From positions 62,001 to 126,000 of the forward strand of contig JALGVJ010000004.1 in NCBI GenBank assembly GCA_029838195.1: a stretch of 64,000 nt of DNA. The letters are read 5' to 3'. Under the pieces are notes generated by a model. The model saw only the letters and a list, made by a program, of their open reading frames with translations, did not search any database and was not told the DNA's origin. This document shows positions 32,375 through 39,312 of the stretch, one piece after another; position 1 is the first letter of the stretch; every line of letters begins with the position of its first letter. Source of the DNA: Promethearchaeota archaeon (GTDB lineage: Archaea > Asgardarchaeota > Lokiarchaeia > Sigyniarchaeales > SOKP01). The position numbers were made by a program, and so were the translations under genes.

Positions 32375-33172
32375 TTAGTACTCTTCCTCTTCTTCCCCGA
32401 ATTCTGCTTCTTCCACGCGAGGCGCCAAGAAATAAATGAGTTCTCCTCCTTCTAACAAATTAAATTTCATTTTTAAGGGATGATCCGTGCGTGTAGAAAT
32501 TTCTAATTTCTCAGTAATGGATGATAGATTTAAAATTGCTTTTAGAAAAGTAAGAGAATATGCTCCCTCGCTCATTTCTGAGATATTAGCATCGAGTAAA
32601 TCATCTAATGATAAGCTATATTCCATTTCCCCTATTTGCCCGGTAGAACTAAAGATCAAGCCTTCATCTTTTACTGCCTTTATATTAATGAGCTCTGAAT
32701 AGATTTCCGCATCTTTAATTGCTTCTACGAGATATTCCGGTGACATTACCCAACTTACTGGATATTCACTGTTAAGGATGTTATCAATGGGTAACTCTTC
32801 AAATTCCATATCCAAAACAGCCAAACTAAACGTGCGGGTCCTAGAAACACCTTCCTTTTGCATTTTAATAAGGATTTTTTGGTCTTTTTCCTTGAAATTT
32901 AATTCAATAGAATCATCCGGCGCACTTCTTTTTAATATCTTATTTAGATCATCTAAATTTAATCCAACTTTAGATTCCTGGCTACATTTAAATTCATCGA
33001 AATTCTCTTTCTGAATCGAGAGTTTTAAAAGACAAATCCGACTGGGATCCATTGCAGAAATAGAAAATTCAGCAGGTGTCACCTTGAATTCCGTCTCATC
33101 AATAATGTTAGCCAAGGTCTCAATAATAACTTTTAAAATCCGACTATTTTCTAATTTTAATGTAAATGAAAT
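32375..33172 (-). CDS. pcn: DNA sliding clamp PCNA, apparently initiated at an AUU codon
   Basis: The homotrimeric ring that tethers polymerases and other factors to DNA. Core landmarks: IDETEFKVTPAEFSISAMDPSRI near the start, LNLDDLNKIL, the interdomain region, and the C-terminal APRVEEAEFGEEE. The ORF track opens at a TTG (33115), which would delete the first beta strand and helix. Reading the same frame further upstream gives ISFTLKLENSRILKVIIETLAN, which matches the missing PCNA N-terminus, and a TAA directly precedes the ATT at 33172-33170. AAGGTG lies seven bases before this ATT. Taking ATT as the start gives 265 residues. A sequencing error (ATG to ATT) is the alternative. Confidence 0.93.
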   Translation of the reverse strand: MSFTLKLENSRILKVIIETLANIIDETEFKVTPAEFSISAMDPSRICLLKLSIQKENFDEFKCSQESKVGLNLDDLNKILKRSAPDDSIELNFKEKDQKILIKMQKEGVSRTRTFSLAVLDMEFEELPIDNILNSEYPVSWVMSPEYLVEAIKDAEIYSELINIKAVKDEGLIFSSTGQIGEMEYSLSLDDLLDANISEMSEGAYSLTFLKAILNLSSITEKLEISTRTDHPLKMKFNLLEGGELIYFLAPRVEEAEFGEEEEEY

Positions 33173-33179
33173 TTATAAG

Positions 33180-33185
33180 CACCTT
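33180..33185 (-). promoter_or_regulatory. Shine-Dalgarno motif that fixes the PCNA start at ATT
   Basis: AAGGTG followed by CTTATAA and then ATT. The divergent neighbour at 33370 has AAGGTG, ATTATAA and then ATG, the same motif and spacing in front of a normal start. S27e (GGTG, seven bases, ATG) and the gene at 162-1001 (GGTG, eight bases, ATG) follow the same pattern, so the ATT is in the position a start codon would occupy. Confidence 0.7.
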
Positions 33186-33369
33186 GTTTCCTTTTTTTAT
33201 GATAAGATAGAGTTATTCACACTAATTAAAAAATTTAATATTAACCTTTTATTAAACAATAATAATATTAATACCCTTATTATTCTAATGTTCAACTTAA
33301 ACTTTTAATAGTTATTTTAAATTTCTATCCTAAATTATTTTTACCATGTTCCTTCTAAGGTGATTATAA

Positions 33370-33702
33370 ATGGAATCTCAACACGCTCGGCAAAGAACTA
33401 TCGAAGATATTATAAACAACGATATTTACATTCAAATCACGGGTTATGTAAAAGAATTACTCGAAAATAATCAAATCATTTTGAAGGATAATACAGGTAA
33501 GATTAAAATTGATCTCGGTGAAATTGAATTTCCCTACAAAAAGAACGATTTGATTAATGTCATTGGAGAATTAAACATTACCATGGCAGGGGAAAAAATC
33601 ATCCAAGCTAAAATAATTCAGGACATGAGGAATTTAAACTTCGAATATTATGAAAAACTTTATAAAATCAAGAAAGAATTCATTAAACCGGATTCTTATT
33701 GA
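33370..33702 (+). CDS. Small OB-fold nucleic-acid-binding protein (RPA-like candidate)
   Basis: A 110-residue protein with the strand pattern of an OB-fold: IYIQITGYVKELLENNQIILKD, GKIKIDLGEI, LINVIGELNITMAGEKIIQA. The V-G-x-V/E strands and short loops resemble single OB-fold subunits of replication protein A or Stn1/Ten1-type proteins, but no finer family can be assigned. It is transcribed away from PCNA across a 197-bp gap, in a cluster of replication genes, which supports a single-stranded-DNA role by context. The start is well supported by AAGGTG seven bases before the ATG. Confidence 0.75.
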   Translation: MESQHARQRTIEDIINNDIYIQITGYVKELLENNQIILKDNTGKIKIDLGEIEFPYKKNDLINVIGELNITMAGEKIIQAKIIQDMRNLNFEYYEKLYKIKKEFIKPDSY

Positions 33703-38732: not shown

Positions 38733-38877
38733 TGATCCACAGCATAATTAATATTAAATTACTTATTATTGTAAATAATTGCTCATTTTAATTTTTTATG
38801 ATAAGTAATCTTGAAATACAAAATTTTAAGAGATATCACGTATTAAATTTAATCATATATTATAAAAGGTGAATACG

Positions 38878-39312
38878 ATCGGAAAAACGAAAGGCCTATA
38901 TGCTGCAAGAAAATTAAAAAATAATCGCAAGAAATTTCGATGGTCAAAATCTAAATATAAAAGAAAAAAATTGAAATTAAAGCAAAAAGTAGACCCTTTA
39001 GAAGGTTCACCTCAAGCTACGGGTATCGTTCTCCAGAAAGTGGGGAGAGAAAGCAAGCAACCCAACTCTGCGATTCGAAAATGTGTCCGTGTTCAATTGA
39101 AGAAAAATGGAAAAGGAATTACTGCTTTTTTACCTGGTGATGGTGCATTAAACTTTATAGATGAACATGATACCGTACTTGTAGAAGGAATTGGAGGATC
39201 AAAAGGAAGAAGTATTGGAGATCTTCCCGGAGTTCGATGGAAAGTAGTTAAGGTAAATGGTGTCAGCTTGGAGGCTCTAATTAAAGGAAAGAAAGAGAAG
39301 CCCATCCGTTAA
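38878..39312 (+). CDS. rps12: Small ribosomal subunit protein uS12, probably initiated at AUC
   Basis: A decoding-centre protein. Motifs [22 protein letters not shown] and [34 protein letters not shown] are typical. The ORF track opens at a GTG (38869) that itself lies inside AAAGGTGA, a ribosome-binding motif. Six bases after GGTG comes ATC GGA AAA, giving (M)[12 protein letters not shown], which aligns residue for residue with eukaryotic RPS23 (MGKCRGLRTARKL). ATC at 38878 is therefore the likelier start. The gene sits on the plus strand inside an otherwise minus-strand rpoA1-rpoA2-rpl30e-nusA-rps7 cluster, so it has been inverted. Confidence 0.95.

Follow-up and report, generated by a model that had tools for sequence, protein, structure and literature searches.

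A likely AUU start of the PCNA gene in a Lokiarchaeon and the recurrence of probable AUH start codons behind GGUG Shine-Dalgarno motifs

The PCNA gene (pcn) of this Lokiarchaeon is most likely translated from an AUU codon, as one of many real AUH starts (AUA, AUC or AUU; ATH in DNA) that are paired with a GGUG-type Shine-Dalgarno (SD) motif. Initiation itself is inferred, with no read, peptide or footprint data at hand, while the position of the start, the coding constraint, the SD, the recurrence of AUH and the statistics are shown below. Archaeal start codons are thought to be limited to AUG, GUG and UUG, with rare exceptions.

Results

Start region of pcn

The gene is carried by a contig of 237 kb in a Lokiarchaeal MAG of 4.5 Mb (96.6% complete, 7.9% contamination), from which a window (the whole stretch of 64,000 nucleotides, whose positions are used here) was analysed. 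Its features are collected in Table 1. Direct reading of the letters on the minus strand gives ACAAGGTGCTTATAA-ATT-TCA at 33190-33165, and from the SD onward the leader runs AAGGTG-CTTATAA-ATT-TCA-TTT-ACA, with AAGGTG at 33185-33180 and a spacer of 7 bases. A sequence-only reading of the window had claimed the TAA-ATT juxtaposition, the AAGGTG with its 7-base spacer and the reading frame, all of which held. It had also claimed that the TTG start of the supplied ORF truncates PCNA, which held too, as did, for codons in frame, its claim that no ATG, GTG or other TTG could replace the ATT. Before codon 20 there is no in-frame ATG, GTG or TTG, the first one being the TTG at 33115, 19 codons downstream of the ATT. 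The sole other start-like codon nearby, the GTG within AAGGTG (33182-33180), is out of frame and runs into a stop after 12 codons.

Read from the ATT, the protein matches Pfam PCNA_N (PF00705; 1.3e-20) over residues 3-124, starting at profile position 2, and PCNA_C (PF02747; 3.2e-08) over residues 134-251. Together these domains make up the whole length of the product, meeting the criterion for membership of the sliding clamps, and the NCBIfam sliding clamp model matches at 7.3e-52. The N-terminal strand of the clamp is recovered on reading from the ATT, as judged at the sequence level only from the PF00705 match and the alignment to relatives. A genome-wide search found this intact gene as the sole PCNA match.

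Table 1. Features of the pcn and uS12 start regions in the window.
Feature	Position	Strand	Basis or remark
pcn (PCNA sliding clamp)	32375..33172	-	265 codons from ATT, plus TAA stop
Proposed pcn start codon ATT	33170..33172	-	ATG in the aligned position in 45/60 distinct relatives
TAA, in frame, directly 5' of the ATT	33173..33175	-	Sequence
TTG, pcn start in the mechanical ORF list; rejected	33113..33115	-	Homology reaches 19 codons above
pcn Shine-Dalgarno AGGTG	33180..33184	-	T of GGTG 9 nt before start; pairs with 16S 3' end GGATCACCTCC
Possible BRE/TATA promoter element AAAAGGTTAATATTAAA	33234..33250	-	Inferred; similar AAAAGACTAATATCAAA at about equal distance in many relatives
Leader of divergent OB-fold gene AAGGTGATTATAAATG	33357..33372	+	pcn-like SD and spacing, normal ATG; Pfam Ten1_2 2e-06
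uS12 gene, start ATC	38878..39312	+	ATG at that codon in 14/14 matched relatives
uS12 Shine-Dalgarno GGTG	38868..38871	+	Contains in-frame GTG (38869)

Homologues fix the position of the pcn initiator at the ATT. In the start regions of 60 distinct relatives, ATG is aligned with this codon in 45, lies one codon off in 12 and is replaced by GTG in 1, which amounts to a canonical start at the ATT or one codon either side in 58/60. The two remaining regions consist of one partial match and one gene with a longer N-terminus. ATT as the pcn start was seen in none of the 60. Within the proposed frame, 46 pairs were compared over codons 2-19, and synonymous differences (293) outnumbered non-synonymous ones (137). 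Therefore, the frame above the TTG is translated and under constraint at the protein level. With AUH at the homologous initiator position and without an in-frame AUG, GUG or UUG as an alternative, pcn satisfies the criterion for an AUH start.

The first codon of pcn in close relatives had been proposed as a check on the AUU, with ATG in all relatives taken as a refutation. The check returned ATG nearly throughout, GTG once and ATT never, and the proposed refutation has to be corrected: the ATG of the relatives shows where the start lies without refuting the AUU, because other genes of this genome show a like replacement (see below). The comparison of pcn alone, however, cannot tell a real AUU from a base-call error, and the genus holds a single species, with no second genome of it among those compared.

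Shine-Dalgarno motif, promoter and divergent neighbour

The 3' end of the 16S rRNA found in this genome reads GGATCACCTCCT; the AGGTG of pcn is therefore a true 5-nt Shine-Dalgarno match. Its spacing is one in common use, which meets the criterion of a working distance. Matches of at least 5 nt within the usual spacing range occur in merely 12.7% of ATG-first ORFs. Further upstream, a promoter-like AAAAGRYTAATAT element is conserved among relatives, and the leader length counted from the conserved ATCTTA element equals that of many of them.

As the sequence-only reading had claimed, the divergent neighbour carries AAGGTG, a similar spacer and a normal ATG (AAGGTG-ATTATAA-ATG, with the ATG at 33370). 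This gene (33370-33702, plus strand) encodes a small OB-fold protein with a weak Ten1_2 match, and its leader is nearly identical to that of pcn (AAGGTGNTTATAAAT).

Spacing between GGTG and ATH

The scan covered 2.1 Mb of this genome (G000) and 0.4 Mb of a single-contig genome from another genus of the Lokiarchaeal family (G050), i.e. about 2.5 Mb from two family members. Where an ORF had no canonical start within 6 codons, ATH stood 9 nt downstream of the GGTG T in 14/23 cases, pcn itself among them, compared to 17/286 farther along, at 13-30 nt (p=2e-10). When all ORFs were considered, ATH at 8-9 nt after GGTG reached 20.8% against 8.8% (p=1.3e-5). In this all-ORF test neither reversed motifs nor GAGG/GGAG showed such an excess, which is thus specific to the GGTG-type SD. 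A pooled codon test around the SD, in which the spacing was not fixed, gave only a weak signal (p about 0.05); the sharp signal emerged only once the spacing had been fixed from the data themselves. Independently of the SD, homology above the first canonical start flagged about ten genes in G000, most of which have an SD of the GGTG or GGAGG type and, after it, ATT, ATA, ATC or, once, CTG.

Probable AUH starts in other genes

Within the window, uS12 is a second case. NCBIfam PRK04211 positions 6-146 of 146 are matched by its residues 4-144. Against an AUH start in this gene, the GTG inside the SD offers an in-frame alternative, and it is the codon at 38869 that gene finders would pick. In the case of uS3, a pattern search printing the bases gave ATT in G000 and ATG (6) or TTG (2) in relatives. 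In uS3, an SDR and an alcohol dehydrogenase (ADH), Met-1 of the full-length NCBIfam model falls on an ATT; in aIF5A that place reads ATT-ATT. The dapL gene has ATT after GGTG in two genera (G000 and G050), with TAA directly before the ATT in G050; a MinD-like gene in G017 reads TAG-ATT. SD-led SDR genes have ATT in G000, ATC in G055 and ATG in the other family members. Altogether, pcn is not upheld as the isolated oddity it had first been taken for, as its AUU fits a recurrent use of AUH in this family that includes uS12.

SD-led response regulators with AUH only made up 17/29 in this Lokiarchaeal family and 5/40 elsewhere in the phylum (p=7e-5), and within one genus an ATA start is common to the orthologues of several species. 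These pattern sets are small and were selected for GGTG, and the shares therefore apply to SD-led genes and not to genes at large.

Several candidates were dropped. Some (ABC ATPase C38:71717, C19:75662 and C56:118548) could be explained by an out-of-frame ATG plus one indel, and uL11 and, in G050, purA have a broken frame. As a point against the AUH reading, aIF5A, ADH and an ABC ATPase have a nearby out-of-frame ATG that one indel could bring into frame. In uL11 (G000 C47 about 5673, minus strand, locus L142), the frame is broken by an insert of some 31 bases that separates KALVTGG from ASGGPPIGPAVG and could be either a very short intron or an error of assembly. The frame of adenylosuccinate synthetase in G050 (292049, minus strand) is broken near the N-terminus, which suggests an indel in that assembly. 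Separately, in one relative (L060:1478, minus strand) the conserved N-terminus of aspartate carbamoyltransferase is closely preceded by an in-frame TAG.

Alternative explanations

The rival that survives best, though unlikely, is an assembly or sequencing error hiding a true ATG in pcn. In its favor, nearly all relatives carry ATG here, the genus of one species has no second assembly, and this MAG is not free of errors, as its frame breaks elsewhere (uL11). However, errors would not cluster on those start codons that follow GGTG by 9 nt (14/23 compared to 17/286), nor would they avoid AAG, ACG and AGG. Moreover, independently assembled genomes of other genera contain AUH starts as well, and orthologues have them in common.

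Translation from the TTG at 33115, or from the out-of-frame GTG at 33182 followed by a frameshift, is considered very unlikely. These are the only canonical start codons nearby, and the leader itself offers the GTG. Nevertheless, coding constraint is present already from codon 2, a TTG start would lose 19 residues covered by PCNA_N and has no homologous counterpart, and the GTG frame ends after 12 codons. Just as improbable is that the ATG of this strain underwent a real but isolated or damaging mutation, which is tolerated because expression is low and has nothing to do with any wider usage: the ATT is found in the pcn of this genome only, but the gene is intact and the only one for PCNA, and an equivalent replacement is seen in uS3 and uS12, which are essential as well.

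Discussion

Our preferred reading remains initiation of pcn at AUU as part of a wider AUH usage, and single precedents for such starts exist. In bacteria, infC (IF3) starts at AUU in E. coli and at ATC in Streptomyces, and sigR starts at GTC (PMC5472188). As proposed for pcn, these genes have a non-canonical codon (AUH in infC) as a genuine start that annotation missed. They are, however, individual genes of bacteria under autoregulation or repression by IF3, whereas the AUH set described here comprises many unrelated archaeal genes, is tied to a GGUG SD and shows no sign of autoregulation. The criterion for infC-type autoregulation, a product that controls start-codon fidelity, is not met by PCNA, a DNA clamp. 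Closer in phylum and reasoning is the Asgard (Kariarchaeaceae) tubulin AtubA, for which an ATT start was inferred (PMC13394414): there, too, an upstream ATT with a ribosome binding site at a plausible distance restores a missing first strand. AtubA, in contrast, is one gene in a different archaeal family that was presented as a rare case, while here half a genome and the phylum were tested.

Non-canonical starts are opposed by IF3 in bacteria and by aIF1 in archaea (PMC5472188, PMC6237735). In SD-led archaeal initiation, aIF1 normally proofreads the start codon, and AUG, GUG and UUG are described as starts (PMC6237735, PMC7531240). The cases reported here share with it the pairing of the SD with the 16S 3' end; in a cultured Lokiarchaeon, the SD is said not to be prevalent (PMC6237735, PMC7531240), whereas the AUH starts here accompany an SD. 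No description of regular AUH use in Lokiarchaea was found in the literature searched, which mostly lacked subscription papers and preprints.

As to a mechanism, the small subunit would be positioned by pairing of AGGUG with the 16S 3' end (CACCU). The initiator Met-tRNA would then pair with the first two bases of the codon (A-U, U-A), and a mismatch at the third base would be tolerated. AUA, AUC, AUU and perhaps rarely CUG may thus serve as starts in this Lokiarchaeal family when a GGUG-type SD lies about 9 nt upstream. Both methionine as the first residue and the relaxed check of the third base are inferred. When 2.1 Mb, only part of the genome, was scanned for an initiator tRNA of an unusual kind, no tRNA with a CAT anticodon turned up, and a search for aIF1 with an approximate query sequence and a regex gave no convincing match in the part of the genome searched.

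A bolder reading, towards which we lean only slightly, is that this Lokiarchaeal family has a second initiation signal, GGUG followed by AUH about 9 nt later. If true, a few percent of the genes would depend on this signal, those for the clamp and for ribosomal proteins among them; it would need relaxed proofreading of the third base (by aIF1, the initiator tRNA or the ribosome) and would also be present, less often, in other Asgard archaea. Standard gene finders overlook AUH starts. If regular AUH use holds, many Asgard protein N-termini would be misannotated or truncated, including those of proteins expressed for structural work, and its presence in the closest archaeal relatives of eukaryotes would be relevant to the evolution of start-codon fidelity.
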